Source: Prosthecobacter fusiformis (GTDB lineage: Bacteria; Verrucomicrobiota; Verrucomicrobiia; Verrucomicrobiales; Verrucomicrobiaceae). Taken from it: DNA of 64,000 bases. Shown here piece after piece: positions 24,965 through 33,729 of this stretch. Within the stretch, counting starts at the first letter, position 1; the number at the start of each line of letters is the position of its first letter. Below the pieces are notes generated by a model. That model searched no databases. It was given only the letters and a program-made list of their open reading frames with translations, and had not been told where the DNA came from. The translations under genes and the position numbers were made by a program. The stretch lies in the NCBI RefSeq assembly GCF_004364345.1, contig NZ_SOCA01000002.1, positions 199,711 through 263,710 on the forward strand. Reading direction: 5' to 3'.

Positions 24965-25759
24965 ATGATCCATCCCACAGCCCTGATCCACCCTTCTGCC
25001 CAGATTGATTCCACTGCGGAAATTGGTCCCTATGTGATTGTGGACGGACCGGCTGAAATTGGCCCAGGCTGCCGCTTGGAAGCTCATTCCCAGATCGTCG
25101 GCCAGGTTAAAATGGGGGCAGGGACCGTGATCGGACGTGCCGCCATCATCGGCGGAGATCCCCAGGATCTGGGATTCAAGACTGAAACAGAGAGCGGCGT
25201 CATCCTGGGGGAGGCGAATGTCATCCGGGAACACGTCACCATCCACCGTGGCAGCAAGCCCGGCAGCTTCACCCGCATAGGCGATGGCAATTTCATCATG
25301 GCCAGCGCCCATCTGGCGCATGACGTTGTTCTGGGGAATAAAAACATCCTGGCCAATGCCTGCTTGCTGGCCGGTCATATCACCGTGGGCAGCCATACCT
25401 TCATTGGTGGCGGTGCCGTTTTCCACCAGTTCATCCGCATCGGGGATTACTGTGTGATTCAGGGGAATGGAGGTTTTGGCAAGGACATCCCCCACTTCTG
25501 TGCCGCTCATCGCATCAATCGCCTCATGGGGCTCAATGTCATCGGTCTCAGGCGTCAGGGCTTCAGCTCAGAACAGCGCGCCAGCATCAAACAAATGTTC
25601 CACCTGCTCTTTAGTTCTGGAAGAAACCTCTCCCAGGCAGTCGCCGCAGCGCGTGAAAAGGAGTGGTCTGAGCCTGCACAGCGCCTCCTGGATTTTGTCG
25701 CCACCCCCTCCAAAAGAGGCATTTGTGCGCTCCAAGGTGGCAGGGAAGGGGAGGATTGA
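24965..25759 (+). CDS. lpxA: Acyl-ACP:UDP-N-acetylglucosamine O-acyltransferase LpxA
   Basis: LpxA adds the first fatty acid to UDP-GlcNAc in lipid A synthesis. The 264-residue protein starts MIHPTALIHPSAQI and has left-handed beta-helix hexapeptide repeats to about residue 190, with IREHVTIHRGS and the catalytic His in SAHLAHDVVLG. GGDPQDLGFK aligns with the substrate loop. The helical C-terminal domain is present; the last residues (KRGICALQGGREGED) look divergent. The ATG at 24965 was chosen over an upstream TTG. Its presence with lptD indicates a lipopolysaccharide-type outer membrane. Confidence 0.94.
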   Translation: MIHPTALIHPSAQIDSTAEIGPYVIVDGPAEIGPGCRLEAHSQIVGQVKMGAGTVIGRAAIIGGDPQDLGFKTETESGVILGEANVIREHVTIHRGSKPGSFTRIGDGNFIMASAHLAHDVVLGNKNILANACLLAGHITVGSHTFIGGGAVFHQFIRIGDYCVIQGNGGFGKDIPHFCAAHRINRLMGLNVIGLRRQGFSSEQRASIKQMFHLLFSSGRNLSQAVAAAREKEWSEPAQRLLDFVATPSKRGICALQGGREGED

Positions 25760-25890
25760 GAATAAGCAGGAATTTTTCCACCTGCTTTTTCTTGTCACCT
25801 TTGAGGCGGTGGCCTATTGAATGGCCTGCTTGGATCAGTTCCCGGTTTAGTTTCCCTGTTCCTGGCTTTTTTCTCAATCTCTACGGCATC

Positions 25891-28314
25891 ATGACATTCT
25901 CCCGACTGTGCGTCGTTCTCGGCTTTGCAGCTCTGATGGTCGCTCCTGGCGTTCGCGGCCAGGCTCTGCTCGACTCTCTGACCAGCAACCTCAACATTGA
26001 GGGGCTGGAAACCACCTATGACCCTGAAACAGGCCTGGCCACTGCCAACGGTGACGTGCGCATTAGCTACACCGATGTCGAGATTCGCTGCGGCACGGCC
26101 AGTTACAATGCCACCACTGGGGAAGTCATCGCCAGAGACAATGTCGTCATCTGGAAGGCTGGCACCACCTACCGCGGTGACAACATCATCTACAATGCCA
26201 ATTCCGGCGAACTCAGCGGTGATGCCGTCCGTAGCGCCATGCCCATGGACATGGGGAACTTCTTTTACGAAACCACCAAGTTTGAGACCGAGACTAAACT
26301 GATTCAGAAAGTGGAGGGGGAGGACACTTACTTCACCACGCATGACGTGCAGAATCCAAACTTCCGCCTGCGTGCCCGTAAGCTGACCATTTATCCCGGG
26401 AATCGCATCGTCATGCGCAATGTCACCGTCCTGGCTGGCAATACCCCTGTCTTTTACTTTCCCTACATTTCACAGCCCTTGGAGGATGAGGTGGGCTACC
26501 GTTTCACCCCTGGTTTCCAGAGCCGCTGGGGCGCTTTCCTCCTGGCCCAGTATGGCGTCATCCATGGCGACCACACCCTGGCCAAATATCGCCTGGACCT
26601 GCGCTCAGCACGCGGTGTCGGTGTCGGGGCTGATTTCCTGTCTCTTCGCCACAAAGAGAACCGCAACAATTTCGGTAACCTGAAGCTCTACTATCTGAAA
26701 GACTCGGATCCGGATAAAAACCGCACCGGCGTGGCCCGTGGCCCGGTGGGTGAGGACCGTTACCGCATTAATTTCCAGCATCGCATCTATCTGCCTGGAC
26801 CTGAAAAGAGCACCTGGTACCTGGATTTTGACATCAATAAGGTCTCCGATGCCCACTTCTACGAAGACTTTTACTTCAATGACTTCCGTGAGACACCTGA
26901 GCCAGAAAACCAGATCTCCCTCGTCCACAATAACCCCGCCTACCTCGCCACTTTGATGGCCCGGTTTCAGGCCAATGACTTTTATACCGTTGGTACCAAG
27001 CTTCCAGAGCTCGCCATCGACTGGACCCGCCGCCAGCTTTGGCACACCGGCATTTATCATCAGGGCACATTCAGCGCAGGCATCCTCAAGGATGAACTTG
27101 GTGATGAACAGGAGCGCGACTTTGCCGGCCTTATCACAGAAGGCAGGGGCGGTGTCCTCAGTGCGGATTCTACCCGTCGTTATCAGGATATCCTCGGCCT
27201 TGGCACTGGCTCAGTTTTGGGTGCAGGAGATATTGCCCGCGGGGTGGATCTCTTCTCGGCACAGCTTGAAGGTGCAGGTTTCGCCCGAGTCCACACTTAC
27301 CAGGAACTCCTCTACCCCAAGACTTTGTTTGGGTGGCTGAATGTCGTCCCTCGCGTGGGTGGTGGTGTGACCCACTATTCGGATATCGACGGAGCATCAC
27401 CTGAGCTTTCCTCGGAGACGAAGACCCTTTTCCATGCAGGTCTGGATGTCTCCTTTAAAGTGACAAAAACCTGGAGCGACTACTACAAGCCTGAGTGGGG
27501 CCTGGACGGCCTGCGTCACGTCCTTCAGCCATACCTGAATTACTCCTACTTGGATGCTTCCCAGGCGACCGGTTTCCGTGGTGTGGACCGTCTTTCCCCC
27601 ACCACCCGTCCCCGCTCCATTGACGTCCCTCTTTATACCGCTGTGGATGATCTCCAGTCCTGGAACATCGCTCGTATCGGGATGCGCAACCTCCTGCAGA
27701 CGAAGCGTGATTATACCAGCACCAAGAACGGCACCTTTTACTCCGCTACGAGCGAAGGGCCGCAGACTTATACCTGGGCTGGTCTGAATACGTATGTGGA
27801 TGTCTTCCTCAAAGACCCTGAATTCGACCGTAATTTCTCCAACCTTTACAACGAACTGTTCTTCCGTCCGGTTCCTTGGGTGAATTTCTGGATGGACTGG
27901 CAGATGCCGCTCGAAAGTGGTGAAGGCAGCTTCACAGAACTCAACCAGGGCGTGACATTCATGCCAGGGCGTAATATGCAGCTGACTCTGGGTCACCAGT
28001 ATGTGAGTGACAGCCCTTACTTTGCGGATTCCAGCCTGGTCTTCTCCCGCATCTACGCCCGCTTGACGGACAATTGGGGCTTCTCCATGAACCACATTTT
28101 CGAAATGGATGACGGCACGATGGAATTTCAAAGCTACAGCGTCTCGCGGGATCTCTCCAGTTGGGTGGCTTCAGTCGGTGCCATGGTCCGGGACAACCGC
28201 AATGGCCTCTCAGATTACGGTATTCTCTTCTCCCTGACTCTGAAGGACTTCCCTCAGCTCAGCATGCCGCTGGATATCGACCCCAACCCATCTGGCCGTG
28301 GAGGCAATCAGTAG
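25891..28314 (+). CDS. lptD: LPS-assembly outer-membrane protein LptD (OstA)
   Basis: LptD is the outer-membrane barrel that puts lipopolysaccharide into the outer leaflet. The 807-residue protein has a signal peptide (LCVVLGFAALMVAPGVRGQ), an OstA/LptA-like jellyroll (about 45-200, with YDPETGLATANGDVRISY and NVVIWKAGTTYRGDNIIYN), then a C-terminal barrel region of many amphipathic strands, ending without a classical Phe. PVFYFPYISQPLEDEVGYRF is typical of the LptD start of barrel. The start ATG at 25891 follows an open stretch that overlaps lpxA and is not a signal peptide. The gene follows lpxA by 131 bp. Confidence 0.88.
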   Translation: MTFSRLCVVLGFAALMVAPGVRGQALLDSLTSNLNIEGLETTYDPETGLATANGDVRISYTDVEIRCGTASYNATTGEVIARDNVVIWKAGTTYRGDNIIYNANSGELSGDAVRSAMPMDMGNFFYETTKFETETKLIQKVEGEDTYFTTHDVQNPNFRLRARKLTIYPGNRIVMRNVTVLAGNTPVFYFPYISQPLEDEVGYRFTPGFQSRWGAFLLAQYGVIHGDHTLAKYRLDLRSARGVGVGADFLSLRHKENRNNFGNLKLYYLKDSDPDKNRTGVARGPVGEDRYRINFQHRIYLPGPEKSTWYLDFDINKVSDAHFYEDFYFNDFRETPEPENQISLVHNNPAYLATLMARFQANDFYTVGTKLPELAIDWTRRQLWHTGIYHQGTFSAGILKDELGDEQERDFAGLITEGRGGVLSADSTRRYQDILGLGTGSVLGAGDIARGVDLFSAQLEGAGFARVHTYQELLYPKTLFGWLNVVPRVGGGVTHYSDIDGASPELSSETKTLFHAGLDVSFKVTKTWSDYYKPEWGLDGLRHVLQPYLNYSYLDASQATGFRGVDRLSPTTRPRSIDVPLYTAVDDLQSWNIARIGMRNLLQTKRDYTSTKNGTFYSATSEGPQTYTWAGLNTYVDVFLKDPEFDRNFSNLYNELFFRPVPWVNFWMDWQMPLESGEGSFTELNQGVTFMPGRNMQLTLGHQYVSDSPYFADSSLVFSRIYARLTDNWGFSMNHIFEMDDGTMEFQSYSVSRDLSSWVASVGAMVRDNRNGLSDYGILFSLTLKDFPQLSMPLDIDPNPSGRGGNQ

Positions 28315-28442
28315 GGCAGTTTTGCTCTTGAGAGTGAATGGCGTTGAGCGCAGTGTTGTGCTCTCATAATGGACCCGGTGATTCACAGCAGCAGCCACTG
28401 CTGGTAATCATCGGATTTCCTCGCCGTTTTCTCCTATATTTC

Positions 28443-29759
28443 ATGAAGCTCACCATCATCGGTTCTGGATACGTCGGTCTCACCACAGGGGCTTGTTTTG
28501 CCGAGGTTGGGCATCAAGTGCTTTGTGTGGATAACGACGAGGCCAAGGTGAAATCCCTACAGGCCGGAGAAATCCCCATTTTCGAGCCGGGCCTGGAATC
28601 TCTCGTGAGAAAAAATGTGGCCGCACGCCGACTTCAATTCACCACTTCGACCGAGGAAGGCGTGGACCATGGGGAGGTGCTCTTTATCGCCGTCCCCACA
28701 CCTCCTCAGGCCGATGGCAGCGTGGATCTCAGTTTCATCGAGAAGGTGGCCCGCGAAATCGCCCAGTACCTTTCCAGTTACCGCGTCATTGTGGACAAGA
28801 GCACCGTCCCCGTGAAAACCGGTGAACGCGTGGCCTCCACCATCCGCCGCCATGCCAAGCCAGGGGCAGAGTTTGATGTGGTCAGCAATCCTGAGTTTCT
28901 GCGCGAAGGCTGTGCCGTGGCCGATCTCATGCGGCCTGACCGCATCGTCATCGGCGGAAACAGCGACAGGGCGCTCGCCTTGATGCAGAAAATTTACGAG
29001 CCCTTTGTCGCTCCCGTCCTCGTCACTGATATCAACAGCGCCGAACTCATCAAACACGCAGCCAACAGCTTTCTGGCGCTGAAGATCAGCTACATCAATG
29101 CCCTGGCGGAAATTTGCGAAGTCAGCGGTGCGGATGTCCTCAAAGTCGCCGAAGGCATCGGCGCGGATAAACGCATCGGTCGCGGTTTCCTCAATGCCGG
29201 CCTGGGCTATGGCGGCTCTTGTTTCCCCAAGGATGTTTCCGCCTTCATAGCCATCGCTGAGCAGTTAGGCCTTCCCTTTGACCTGCTCAAAGAAGTCCAG
29301 AAAATCAACATCCGGCAGGTGGACCGCTTCCTGGATGCCATTCGTGAGGCGCTTTGGGTGCTGAAGGATAAAAAAATCGCCGTCTGGGGACTCAGCTTCA
29401 AGCCGAATACCGACGATGTCCGCTCTTCTGTCGCCGTGAATCTGGTGGAGCGTTTGGTGGCGGAAGGCGCTTTGGTCAGTGCTTACGATCCCCAGGCGAT
29501 GCCAAAAGCGGCTGAGTTACCCATGGCTTCTAAAATTCGTTTCGCCAGCAGCGCACTGGATGCTGCCGCAGATGCGGAGGTCCTCATCATCGCCACCGAA
29601 TGGCCGGAATTTGCCTCGGCGGACCTCGCCTCACTGCGCAGTACCATGCGCACCCCTTTGATCTTTGACGGTCGTAATCTGCTTGATCCTGTCGCCGTTC
29701 GCGATTTTGGCTTCCAATACCGTGGCATTGGCCGCGGCATCGTGGCTGAGCGTGGATAG
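28443..29759 (+). CDS. ugd: UDP-glucose 6-dehydrogenase
   Basis: Ugd oxidises UDP-glucose to UDP-glucuronate with two NAD+, feeding exopolysaccharide and lipid A-linked sugars. The 438-residue protein has the NAD motif GSGYVGLTTGACFAEVGH, the family signatures VPTPP and STVPVKTGE, the substrate-site Lys in AELIKHAANSFLALKISYIN, and the catalytic Cys in GYGGSCFPKD. The C-terminal domain has WGLSFKPNTDDVRSS. All catalytic residues are present. The ATG at 28443 matches the usual MKLTIIGSGYVG start. It may share transcription with lptD, 128 bp upstream. Confidence 0.95.
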   Translation: MKLTIIGSGYVGLTTGACFAEVGHQVLCVDNDEAKVKSLQAGEIPIFEPGLESLVRKNVAARRLQFTTSTEEGVDHGEVLFIAVPTPPQADGSVDLSFIEKVAREIAQYLSSYRVIVDKSTVPVKTGERVASTIRRHAKPGAEFDVVSNPEFLREGCAVADLMRPDRIVIGGNSDRALALMQKIYEPFVAPVLVTDINSAELIKHAANSFLALKISYINALAEICEVSGADVLKVAEGIGADKRIGRGFLNAGLGYGGSCFPKDVSAFIAIAEQLGLPFDLLKEVQKINIRQVDRFLDAIREALWVLKDKKIAVWGLSFKPNTDDVRSSVAVNLVERLVAEGALVSAYDPQAMPKAAELPMASKIRFASSALDAAADAEVLIIATEWPEFASADLASLRSTMRTPLIFDGRNLLDPVAVRDFGFQYRGIGRGIVAERG

Positions 29760-29867
29760 ACCGCCTGCCTGTCTGTTGTTAAGTCTGAGCCTTCCATTCT
29801 GAATCCGCTGAAAACCATCCATTCATCCTCCCCTGCCACCAGCGTCCGCAACCACGCCCTGGACGTC

Positions 29868-31070
29868 TTGACCGACTGGCAAAAATCCGGCCGCTTTGCC
29901 ACAGACCTGCTGGACGAGCGCGTCCGCCGTGCCGTGCTTTCACCTCCCAATGCTGCTTTCCTTCACGATATCGTCTTTACGACGCTGCGGAATCTCAGCC
30001 TGCTGGACTTCTGGGCGGATCAAATGACTGATGGAAAGCATCTGGACCATCGCACCCGCTGGCTGCTGCGCATCGGCCTCTGCCAGCTCCTGCTTTTGGG
30101 CGTGCCATCCCATGCCGCCGTCAATGAAACTGTCGCTGCTGCCGGTCGTTCCGGGGCTCTCGTCAATGCCGTCCTGCGCCGTGCTGGGCGTGAGGAAGCC
30201 AGGCTGCATGCTCTCGTCGAGGCTCAGCCGCTGACCGTTCGTTATTCGCACCCAGAATTCATGGTCCGCCGCTGGATCAAGATCATGGGCAAGACCAAGG
30301 CCGAAAGCCTCTGCCAGTGGAATCAGGAACCCCCACCCGTGTTTGTGCGCCTGAATGCCCTTCACGAAGAAGCCTTCCTCCGACTGTCCAAAATGCCCGA
30401 GCTCACCGATATCGGTGAAGGCTTTTACCAATGCGAAAGTGCCCCACGCGAAGCCCTGAAGCATGGCCTTTGTTATGCCCAGGACCCCAGCACTGCCCAT
30501 GCCCCGCGCATGCTGGCACCGAAACCGGGTGAAACCGTGCTCGATGCTTGCGCTGCCCCGGGTGGCAAAACCGCACTCCTGGCCGAGATCATGTGCAATG
30601 AAGGCCGCATCTTTGCCTGCGATTCATCTCCCGCCCGGCTCACCCGCCTGCGTGAAAATCTCACCCGTCTGAAGGTCCGTATCGCCCACGTCCACACCTT
30701 CGATTTATTAGGGGATGCGCCCCCACCGTTTGGCGATCTGCTCTTTGACCGCATCCTTCTGGATGTTCCGTGTTCGAATACAGGCGTCATGCGCCGTCGC
30801 ATTGATGTACGCTGGCGCCTCCAGGAGGAAGAATTCGCCGTCCTGGCGGATACCCAGCGCCGCATTGTGGCTTCCGCCCTTCGTTTCCTCAAGCCTGGCG
30901 GTTCCCTGGTTTACAGCACCTGCAGCATTGATCCGGATGAAAATCAGTCCGTCATCAAAGCCATCCTGGAGGCTCATCCAGATATGGAATTGATCGAAAG
31001 CCGCCTCATCTTCCCGCCCAAAGAGCAGACGGATGGAGCCTTCGCCGCACGCTTGGTCAAGAAGGCATGA
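29868..31070 (+). CDS. rsmB: 16S rRNA m5C methyltransferase RsmB-like
   Basis: RsmB methylates C967 of 16S rRNA using S-adenosylmethionine. The 400-residue protein has a NusB-like helical N-terminal domain, then a Rossmann methyltransferase with DACAAPGGKTALLAEI (SAM motif), LLDVPCSNTGVMRR (the PC motif Cys) and VYSTCSIDPDENQ (the catalytic TC motif Cys). The TTG at 29868 is the first standard start codon, yet the matching N-terminal helix seems to begin about 10-20 codons earlier, with only CTG or ATT codons available. The true start may be non-standard. It overlaps the next gene by four bases. Confidence 0.9.
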   Translation: MTDWQKSGRFATDLLDERVRRAVLSPPNAAFLHDIVFTTLRNLSLLDFWADQMTDGKHLDHRTRWLLRIGLCQLLLLGVPSHAAVNETVAAAGRSGALVNAVLRRAGREEARLHALVEAQPLTVRYSHPEFMVRRWIKIMGKTKAESLCQWNQEPPPVFVRLNALHEEAFLRLSKMPELTDIGEGFYQCESAPREALKHGLCYAQDPSTAHAPRMLAPKPGETVLDACAAPGGKTALLAEIMCNEGRIFACDSSPARLTRLRENLTRLKVRIAHVHTFDLLGDAPPPFGDLLFDRILLDVPCSNTGVMRRRIDVRWRLQEEEFAVLADTQRRIVASALRFLKPGGSLVYSTCSIDPDENQSVIKAILEAHPDMELIESRLIFPPKEQTDGAFAARLVKKA

Positions 31071-31474
31071 GCGAGGCCGTCCAGACCCAGCGGGCCGATA
31101 AATGGCTGCACCACGTGCGCGTCTTTAAAACCCGCAGTCTGGCCACCCAGGCCTGTACGAAAGGCAACGTCACCCTCGATGACCAGCCTGTAAAACCCGC
31201 GCGCGATTTGCGGGCAGGGGACGTCATTGAGGTGGTGCGTGGAGACCTGCGCCTGCGCTTGCGGGTGACCGCCTTTGCCCCACGCCGACTCAGTGCCCCG
31301 CAGGTATCGGAATTCTACGAAAACCTCACCCCCCAGGAGTGGATCGAAAAAGCTGCCGAGCTCCGCCGTCAAAAGGAGCTCGAAACCCCTCACGAGCACG
31401 AAATGGTGACCAAGCCTAACAAACAGCAGCTTCGCCAGTTGCGTGAATGGCAGGAGCAGAATCATTCCATGTAG
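31067..31474 (+). CDS. S4-domain RNA-binding protein (HSP15-like)
   Basis: The 135-residue protein has an S4 domain at about 8-70 (RADKWLHHVRVFKTRSLATQ, then GNVTLDDQPVKPARDLRAGDVIEV). E. coli Hsp15 has the same layout and binds blocked 50S subunits with peptidyl-tRNA. Its ATG overlaps the rsmB stop (ATGA), so the two are co-translated, which fits a role in ribosome or rRNA biology. The C-terminal tail is charged and helical, ending in Gln-rich sequence. Confidence 0.87.
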   Translation: MSEAVQTQRADKWLHHVRVFKTRSLATQACTKGNVTLDDQPVKPARDLRAGDVIEVVRGDLRLRLRVTAFAPRRLSAPQVSEFYENLTPQEWIEKAAELRRQKELETPHEHEMVTKPNKQQLRQLREWQEQNHSM

Positions 31475-31598
31475 CCGAGCACTGCCTGGCCCGAATTCAC
31501 GGGGCTGAAGACAAAGAATAGACGGGGCGGAAACAGGGAAGGGGAGCTGCAATCCCCGGTTGCCCCTGGTCCATGAGGTGCTAAGAAGGAAGTGCCCT

Positions 31599-32576
31599 AT
31601 GCCGCGTTTTTTCCGCCCTCTCCCTCTTTCAAAATGCGTCTCTGCCATGCTCTCCCTCGGGAGCATCTGGTTGGTTTTTGCCCCGGCTACCGCCTCTGCA
31701 CAATCCGCAGTCCTGGCGGCAGATAGCTTCAACCGTAAGATTCACGTGGCCAATCAGGCCAATGAGAAGCGCCCCGTAGGCGGCCTAGCCAAAATCGCCA
31801 CCGCCATGGTCACGCTCGATTGGGCGGAGGCCTCCAAAGCCGGCGTCAATATCCTCGCCACCGTCCCTGCCTATGCGCCGCAGGTCGCCGGTAGCAATAC
31901 CCTCGGCCTCCAGCCAGGGGACCGCCTCACCCTGCGCGACCTCATTTATGCCACCCTCATGACGGCAGATGACATCGCCGCCATCACCCTGGGGGACTTC
32001 GTCGGGCGCGATCACCTTCAGCGGCTTCAGCGTGGCGGCGATCCGCTCAATGAATTTGTCCGTCAGATGAATCAGCTCGCTGCCCGCGAAGGTGCAAGCA
32101 ATACCCGGTTCACCAATCCTCACGGGTTTGAGAATACCCGCACCATGCCCTATTCCACCGCAGCGGACATGACCCGCCTGGGGCTTTATGCCATCTCACG
32201 TCCGGCCCTGCGTTTTTATACCAACCAGCGCTCCCGTGAAGTCACCGTTTACCGTGCCACCGGCCAGCTTAGCCTGCCGTTAAACAACACCAATGAACTG
32301 CTCGGCGTATCCAGCATCGACGGCATCAAATACACCTCTACTCCCCGTTCCGGTGGCTGCATCGTCGTCACCGCAGAGCGCCCCGCTTCCGTCACCAAGC
32401 AGCCGGATGGATCCAGTCTCATCTATCGTCACCGCATGGTCGTCACCGTCATAGGTTCTTCCAACCCCGCTGCTGAAGCCCACGCGCTGCTTCAGCAAAG
32501 CTGGGCCGCCTATGATCGCTGGCTGGCCGCAGGCCGTCCCATCACAGACAAGCGCCAGCTTTTGAATAACTACTAA
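31599..32576 (+). CDS. D-alanyl-D-alanine carboxypeptidase-like protein with degenerate active site
   Basis: The 325-residue protein has a signal peptide (cut near ATASAQ) and the S11 peptidase pattern of PBP5-type carboxypeptidases, which trim peptidoglycan side chains. The catalytic motifs are not the standard ones: SxxK is read as G62-LAK, SxN as TAD at 122-124, and KTG as KYT at 244-246 after DGI. TNPHGF, expected in the family, is present. It may be an inactive or regulatory homologue. AAGAAGGA lies eight bases before the ATG at 31599, supporting this start. The frame is intact, so it is probably expressed. Confidence 0.85.
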   Translation: MPRFFRPLPLSKCVSAMLSLGSIWLVFAPATASAQSAVLAADSFNRKIHVANQANEKRPVGGLAKIATAMVTLDWAEASKAGVNILATVPAYAPQVAGSNTLGLQPGDRLTLRDLIYATLMTADDIAAITLGDFVGRDHLQRLQRGGDPLNEFVRQMNQLAAREGASNTRFTNPHGFENTRTMPYSTAADMTRLGLYAISRPALRFYTNQRSREVTVYRATGQLSLPLNNTNELLGVSSIDGIKYTSTPRSGGCIVVTAERPASVTKQPDGSSLIYRHRMVVTVIGSSNPAAEAHALLQQSWAAYDRWLAAGRPITDKRQLLNNY

Positions 32577-32637
32577 TCTGGCTGCAACTCCGTAGTCCAC
32601 CGCGCACACTTTTTCACACCCAACCCATACGAACGAC

Positions 32638-33729
32638 ATGCGAATCGGTATCCTCAACAGTGGCGGCGATTGCCCCGGTCTCAATGCAGTCATCCACGGC
32701 GTCGTTGGCGCTGCTCATAATCTTGGCTGGGAAGTCGTCGGCTTCCGCGATGGTTTCGAAGGCCTGCTGCCTCCGGGGGATTACATGATGCTGGACCCCA
32801 GCCGCACTGTCGGGATCATGAAGCTCGGTGGCACCATTCTGGGCACCACCAACAAAGGCCACTTCGTCGCCAAAGTCGGTGAAGGCAACGTCGCTGAAGT
32901 CCCCAAGGAAATCGTCGAAAAAGCCAAAAACACCCTCCGTCATTTGGAGATCGGCGCACTCATCGTCGTCGGCGGAGACGGCTCCCTGACCACCGGCCTG
33001 CAGCTTTACAACATGGGCGTGCCCGTCATCGGCGTGCCCAAGACCATTGATAATGACATCCAGGCCACAGCCATGACCTTTGGCTTTGATTCCGCCTGCC
33101 ACGCCGTGGTGGATGCCCTGGACCGCCTTCACACCACCGCAGAAAGCCACAAGCGCGTCATCGTGCTCGAAGTCATGGGCCGCCACGCCGGCTGGATCGC
33201 CCTTTATGGCGGCATGGCAGGTGGGGCCGATGTCATCCTGCTCCCGGAAATCCCCTTCCACATGGAGCACGTGGCCGATGCCATCCGCCAGCGCGATGCC
33301 CGCGGCCTGCACAGCACCCTCGTCGTCGTCGCTGAAGGCGCACGCATGGAGACCGGGGAGCTTTTGAAAAAAGAAAACGTCGGTGGCAAAGGCGAGGACC
33401 GCCTGGGTGGCATCGGCGATTACGTGGCCAAAAAGATCGAAGGCATGACGGGCAAGGAAACCCGCGCCTGCACCCTTGGCCACCTTCAGCGTGGTGGCGC
33501 ACCCACCGCCCTGGACCGCATCCTCGGCGTCCGTTTCGGAGCCAAAGCCGTTCACTTGATCGAAGAAGGCAAATTCGGCCGCATGGTCAGCTACCAGCAT
33601 TATCAAGTCGGCGATGTCAGCATCGAGGAAGCCGTCAACCAGCTCCGTCTCGTGCAGCCAGATAGCGAAATCATCCGCGCAGGCCGCAGCATCGGCATCT
33701 GCTTTGGGGATCGCAACGTCTCTCGTTGA
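32638..33729 (+). CDS. 6-phosphofructokinase family protein (phosphate donor unclear)
   Basis: The 363-residue protein phosphorylates fructose 6-phosphate. Seen are the N-terminal GILNSGGDCPGLN, the loop GGDGSLTTG, the catalytic Asp loop PKTIDNDI, MGRHAGWIA, and CTLGHLQRGGAPTALDR. Gly in GGDG is usual for ATP-dependent enzymes while Lys in PKTIDND is usual for pyrophosphate-dependent ones, so the donor (ATP or PPi) cannot be fixed from sequence. The start ATG at 32638 gives a standard N-terminus. A hairpin lies 25 bp after the stop. Confidence 0.92.
   Translation: MRIGILNSGGDCPGLNAVIHGVVGAAHNLGWEVVGFRDGFEGLLPPGDYMMLDPSRTVGIMKLGGTILGTTNKGHFVAKVGEGNVAEVPKEIVEKAKNTLRHLEIGALIVVGGDGSLTTGLQLYNMGVPVIGVPKTIDNDIQATAMTFGFDSACHAVVDALDRLHTTAESHKRVIVLEVMGRHAGWIALYGGMAGGADVILLPEIPFHMEHVADAIRQRDARGLHSTLVVVAEGARMETGELLKKENVGGKGEDRLGGIGDYVAKKIEGMTGKETRACTLGHLQRGGAPTALDRILGVRFGAKAVHLIEEGKFGRMVSYQHYQVGDVSIEEAVNQLRLVQPDSEIIRAGRSIGICFGDRNVSR

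Follow-up and report, generated by a model that had tools for sequence, protein, structure and literature searches.

The window, a stretch of 64,000 nucleotides from Prosthecobacter fusiformis, carries on its forward strand an open reading frame that starts with ATG at 31599 and whose stop codon ends at 32576. The features of this gene and its downstream neighbour are listed below, with the basis of each in brackets.

31586..31592, + strand: Shine-Dalgarno-like AAGGAAG, 6 bases before the ATG (sequence reading)
31599..32576, + strand: putative S11-family pseudoenzyme, D-alanyl-D-alanine carboxypeptidase-like, 325 aa (Pfam, AlphaFold2, Foldseek)
31599..31701, + strand: predicted N-terminal export signal with basic n-region, hydrophobic core and ATASA|QS cleavage-like site (sequence reading)
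31686..32381, + strand: Peptidase_S11 domain match, residues 30–261 (Pfam)
31782..31793, + strand: SxxK position, GLAK, residues 62–65; nucleophile Ser replaced by Gly62, Lys65 retained (alignments)
31965..31973, + strand: SxN position, ADD, residues 123–125; S-D-N in intact orthologues (alignments)
32328..32336, + strand: KTG position, KYT, residues 244–246; Lys244 retained (alignments)
32466..32468, + strand: Pro290 in place of the Arg of intact orthologues, the equivalent of PBP5 Arg248 (alignments; role of Arg248 from PMC4979060)
32638..33729, + strand: pfkA (6-phosphofructokinase), the conserved next gene downstream, by which the orthologous locus is recognised (synteny)

The product of 31599–32576 matches PF00768 at 92.1 bits (cut-off 27.6) over profile positions 8–225 of 239, most of the profile length, and also gives a weaker match to Beta-lactamase2. 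It was modelled by AlphaFold2 as a confident fold (pLDDT 89.1, pTM 0.84), residues 1–33 being of low confidence. An earlier note on this DNA had claimed a gene with these coordinates, an open frame, a signal-peptide-like N-terminus and a retained fold signature, all of which are borne out. The top Foldseek matches of the model are S11 DD-peptidases (K15, PBP5, PBP6 and DacB), and the nearest solved structures belong to the same group by sequence search and by fold search alike. The product is therefore clearly a member of peptidase S11 by descent (PBP5-type, penicillin-binding/beta-lactamase fold) and, judging from its N-terminus, is a predicted exported protein. No promoter or terminator patterns above chance were found around the gene.

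Motif positions were set by alignment of the window protein with orthologues and paralogues. The note had read the three motifs as GLAK, TAD and KYT; the first and last stand, whereas TAD lies one residue too far upstream, the aligned SxN position being ADD. Standard SxxK, SxN and KTG motifs, which the note had said would refute its reading, were not found at other positions of the aligned protein. Its statement that all three catalytic motifs are altered is correct but incomplete, because a fourth change was overlooked: residue 290 is Arg in 61/61 intact orthologues and Pro in the window protein. It stands seven positions ahead of the conserved C-terminal-helix LL, where it lines up with PBP6 in a profile alignment and with the PBP5 sequence, and appears to match PBP5 Arg248, an equivalence drawn by alignment only. 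The intact paralogues L001 and L002 have Gly and Lys in this column, so that either the column is perhaps misaligned for both or Arg is perhaps not universal in S11. In PBP5, Arg248 contacts the carboxylate of a bound inhibitor, and that of penicillins, in bidentate fashion (PMC4979060).

Like known S11 enzymes (PBP5/DacA, PBP6/DacC, the PBP7-type endopeptidase and the Streptomyces K15 DD-transpeptidase), the window protein has the family fold, domain extent and motif order, together with an export signal and NPHG and YSTAxD segments. DacA and DacC have a C-terminal PBP5_C domain, to which the window protein gives no match. Unlike these enzymes, it has replacements at the Ser of SxxK, at SxN, at the Thr and Gly of KTG and at the Arg248 equivalent, the four features by which an active S11 DD-peptidase was judged. 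It lacks the nucleophile, SxN, KTG Thr/Gly and carboxylate-binding Arg of the S11 serine mechanism, and covalent beta-lactam binding would not be expected without the Ser. The ADD/KYT pair is common to four genomes, the window's own and three others. A sequencing error or frameshift behind the motif changes was rejected, as the states are common to close species and the frame is open; chance change was likewise rejected, given ADD/KYT in four genomes and the absence of Ser from all 60 orthologues of the family.

The window's group is Prosthecobacter (including Brevifollis) in the Verrucomicrobiaceae. A match was obtained in 55/56 close relatives, for some only to a paralogue, and in 166 of 190 genomes of an order-wide sample at E <= 1e-25; the comparison set comprised 153 related proteins from Verrucomicrobiales. 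The nucleophile position is Gly in 60/60 Verrucomicrobiaceae orthologues examined, and residue 290, where readable, is Pro or rarely Ala and in none of them Arg. These 60 Ser-less orthologues form one clade with intact relatives outside it (SH-aLRT 100; the motif columns were left out of the tree). The first fork within the family separates genera with SDN and KTG intact (e.g. GLTK/SDN/KTG) from the rest; because these early-branching genera keep both motifs, Ser and Arg were lost first and the other motifs later. Within Prosthecobacter the second motif varies (SDN, SDD, GDD, ADD), as does the third (KTG, KAA, KAS, KSA, KYT). Sister families and records named Chthoniobacterales/Spartobacteria, from another order, have SLTK/SDN/KTG, which makes the intact form the ancestral state. 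Such intact orthologues linked to pfkA (e.g. L037, L096, L211 and L230) resemble the window gene in locus, identity (~40–45%) and architecture, and differ from it in keeping SLTK/SDN/KTG. Arg290 is kept by the intact sister-family orthologues; the residue is unread for L211 and L230, which are annotated Chthoniobacterales/Spartobacteria.

In most copies the S11 gene immediately precedes pfkA and is read from the same strand. The neighbour was found in 61/64 Ser-less, 43/61 intact and 23/28 other-loss loci, several of the misses being short contigs, and this adjacency in most intact and lost copies argues that the change occurred mostly in place and not in a stray paralogue. The pairing of the S11-like gene with pfkA on one strand (31599–33729) is conserved across the order and in Spartobacteria-named records. 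Upstream on the same strand, 25723–31474 presumably encodes a large exported LptD-like protein, a UDP-glucose dehydrogenase-like protein, an RsmB-like methyltransferase and an S4-domain protein.

The note had also suggested a search for the true active copy elsewhere in the genome. Besides the window protein, the 5.8-Mb genome encodes two S11 proteins whose motifs are intact (STTK/SSN/KTG in one, STQK/SCN/KTG in the other) and one S13 protein, and the transpeptidase family is matched seven times. SxxK was retained in all 22 paralogues sampled, 20 from related genomes and the window genome's two, from which it follows that catalytic loss is specific to the pfkA-adjacent S11 locus and that other copies in the cell have intact motifs.

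Close Ser-less pairs within the family gave Nei-Gojobori dN/dS values of 0.015–0.15, mostly <0.1 (0.043 for the window gene against L051), about like those of intact pairs (mostly 0.07–0.13, one at 0.35); dS is high for some pairs, which makes the values rough, and all point to purifying selection. The gene is thus under strong purifying selection in the Ser-less family, and a pseudogene was rejected on the same values. The note's description of an intact but probably inactive protein is accordingly strongly supported, the catalytic and Arg residues being gone from a protein with pLDDT 89 and low dN/dS. Within the Ser-less family T245, G246 and N125 are relaxed, as is S123 to a lesser degree, while ~30 other positions are fixed, including K65, K244, D124, R213, R279 and C254. 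Newly invariant are H49, G61–G62, F134, R163–E164, Y207 and H278. Such a pattern would be expected if selection acted on the fold and surface of the protein and no longer on its substrate pocket. His49 (31743–31745) and His278 (32430–32432), found in a minority of intact relatives at most, are candidates for a contact or metal site.

We propose that the window gene is the Verrucomicrobiaceae version of an S11 DD-peptidase whose gene stands beside pfkA throughout Verrucomicrobiales. By sequence, the nucleophile Ser changed to Gly and the substrate-carboxylate Arg to Pro at the base of the Verrucomicrobiaceae, ending acyl-enzyme catalysis, and SxN and KTG then decayed as well in Prosthecobacter. 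The exported, folded protein is retained by purifying selection as a pseudoenzyme. Most likely it makes protein–protein contacts in the periplasm and thereby scaffolds active peptidoglycan enzymes or regulates them allosterically. Candidate partners would include the S13 PBP and the S11 paralogues with intact motifs, and the protein might act in the manner of degenerate LytM factors. We give a probability of roughly 0.6 to this reading, the conversion of an S11 enzyme found throughout the order into a conserved pseudoenzyme of the periplasm that most likely scaffolds or regulates enzymes of the cell wall. Counting against this reading, the gene is unlinked to a cell-wall operon, and the conserved pfkA beside it gives no clue to a mechanism. 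The family has also kept the old-site residues K65 and K244 almost without variation, a hint at continued use of part of the cleft.

These lysines, together with the nearly invariant Asp124 and Thr248, would suit a protein whose old cleft holds peptidoglycan stem peptides uncut, as a decoy, sensor or wall anchor, and so would the early-branching genera, in which SDN and KTG are kept and only Ser and Arg are lost. However, Arg is replaced by Pro or Ala in every readable family member and Asn125, Thr245 and Gly246 vary freely, so that canonical D-Ala-D-Ala recognition is evidently not under selection. Since the window lineage has lost the Arg248 equivalent, the Thr and Gly of KTG and the Asn of SxN, binding of D-Ala-D-Ala in the old pocket is unlikely there. 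The note suggested that the protein may regulate or bind peptidoglycan instead of trimming it; a protein-binding role as regulator or scaffold fits better, and non-hydrolysing ligand binding, which the retained lysines speak for, is the weaker reading with the carboxylate grip gone; we regard it as unlikely.

Continued enzyme activity through another nucleophile or a different chemistry is more doubtful still. Lys65 and Lys244 are retained, His49 and His278 are newly fixed and Cys254 is conserved, but next to the SxxK position the family has fixed no new Ser, Cys or Thr; Cys254, Ser186 and Thr68 are also present in intact relatives, and the second motif is degraded too in the window protein. 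The stepwise decay of motifs two and three, lineage by lineage, might be expected of a gene without function on its way to loss, yet the frame is open in all 60 family copies, dN/dS is mostly <0.1, the gene is near-universal in Prosthecobacter and the fold is confident, which leaves such decay barely credible.

Degenerate LytM factors with inactive peptidase domains are regulators of autolysins (PMC10336132). The members EnvC, NlpD and DipM offer a working analogy only: each is a conserved, exported protein with a peptidoglycan peptidase fold that has lost catalysis, but that fold is the unrelated M23 metallopeptidase fold. No M23/LytM domain was found in the window protein by Pfam, and with its different fold it is not a member of the degenerate LytM group. 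Catalytically inactive serine protease homologues (SPHs), which have lost catalytic residues, are a described class (PMC2605481); that survey covers S1, S8, S12, S14 and S16 and not S11, and traces no single locus through a family. M. tuberculosis Rv2911, a Foldseek match considered as a known diverged case, was dropped because its core catalytic residues are reported to be conserved (PMC4281109). Inactive serine-peptidase homologues are thus already a known kind, and no description of a Ser-less S11 protein or of an S11 pseudoenzyme, including one fixed across a family, was found in the literature searched, which was mostly outside subscription papers.

Low-molecular-weight PBPs are usually regarded as enzymes and drug targets, and here a whole family, the Verrucomicrobiaceae, keeps one that should be unable to acylate. 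The order of loss, and the fact that intact relatives occupy the same locus, would make a non-catalytic role of the PBP fold directly testable by comparison of sister genera. Automatic annotation by family profile would name the Ser-less proteins carboxypeptidases, which is probably wrong.

Other catalytic losses are found in Verrucomicrobiales. In genus g2, which is probably Akkermansia (genomes of 2.2–3.5 Mb), most members have SLSQ/SDN/KAG, with Lys lost and Ser and Arg kept, a loss separate from that in the Verrucomicrobiaceae. Eight g2 orthologues (L042, L043, L041, L108, L127, L129, L130 and L153) have SLSQ or SLAQ, and KAG or KTA in place of KTG, with Ser and Arg kept. The most diverged g2 members (L049, L145, L146 and L149) have MLTN or MLAN, DDS, and RAA or KAA and no NPHG; every motif is gone and the gene still lies beside pfkA. 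Tentatively, at somewhat under even odds, one pfkA-linked S11 locus of the order may have given rise repeatedly, through changes at different residues, to a conserved cell-wall factor without catalysis, which became fixed throughout the Verrucomicrobiaceae and separately in the probable Akkermansia. If true, the penicillin-binding fold would have its own parallel to the degenerate LytM regulators.

As in the Verrucomicrobiaceae, the nucleophile position is Gly in family f6 and in the single L122, and residue 290, where readable, is Pro. L122 (family f3; GLAQ/DDP/KFS) carries an independent Ser-to-Gly and Arg-to-Pro pair with no pfkA seen alongside, and may be a paralogue. With test groups chosen after the first tree had been seen, one origin for all Gly forms was rejected for L122 with the Verrucomicrobiaceae (AU p 0.0016) and with f6 (p 0.0008), and a shared origin of the Verrucomicrobiaceae and f6 forms was not (AU p 0.14), so f6 could share the origin of the family's Gly form. 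Parsimony on a quick tree of the order gave at least six changes at Ser and eight at Lys.
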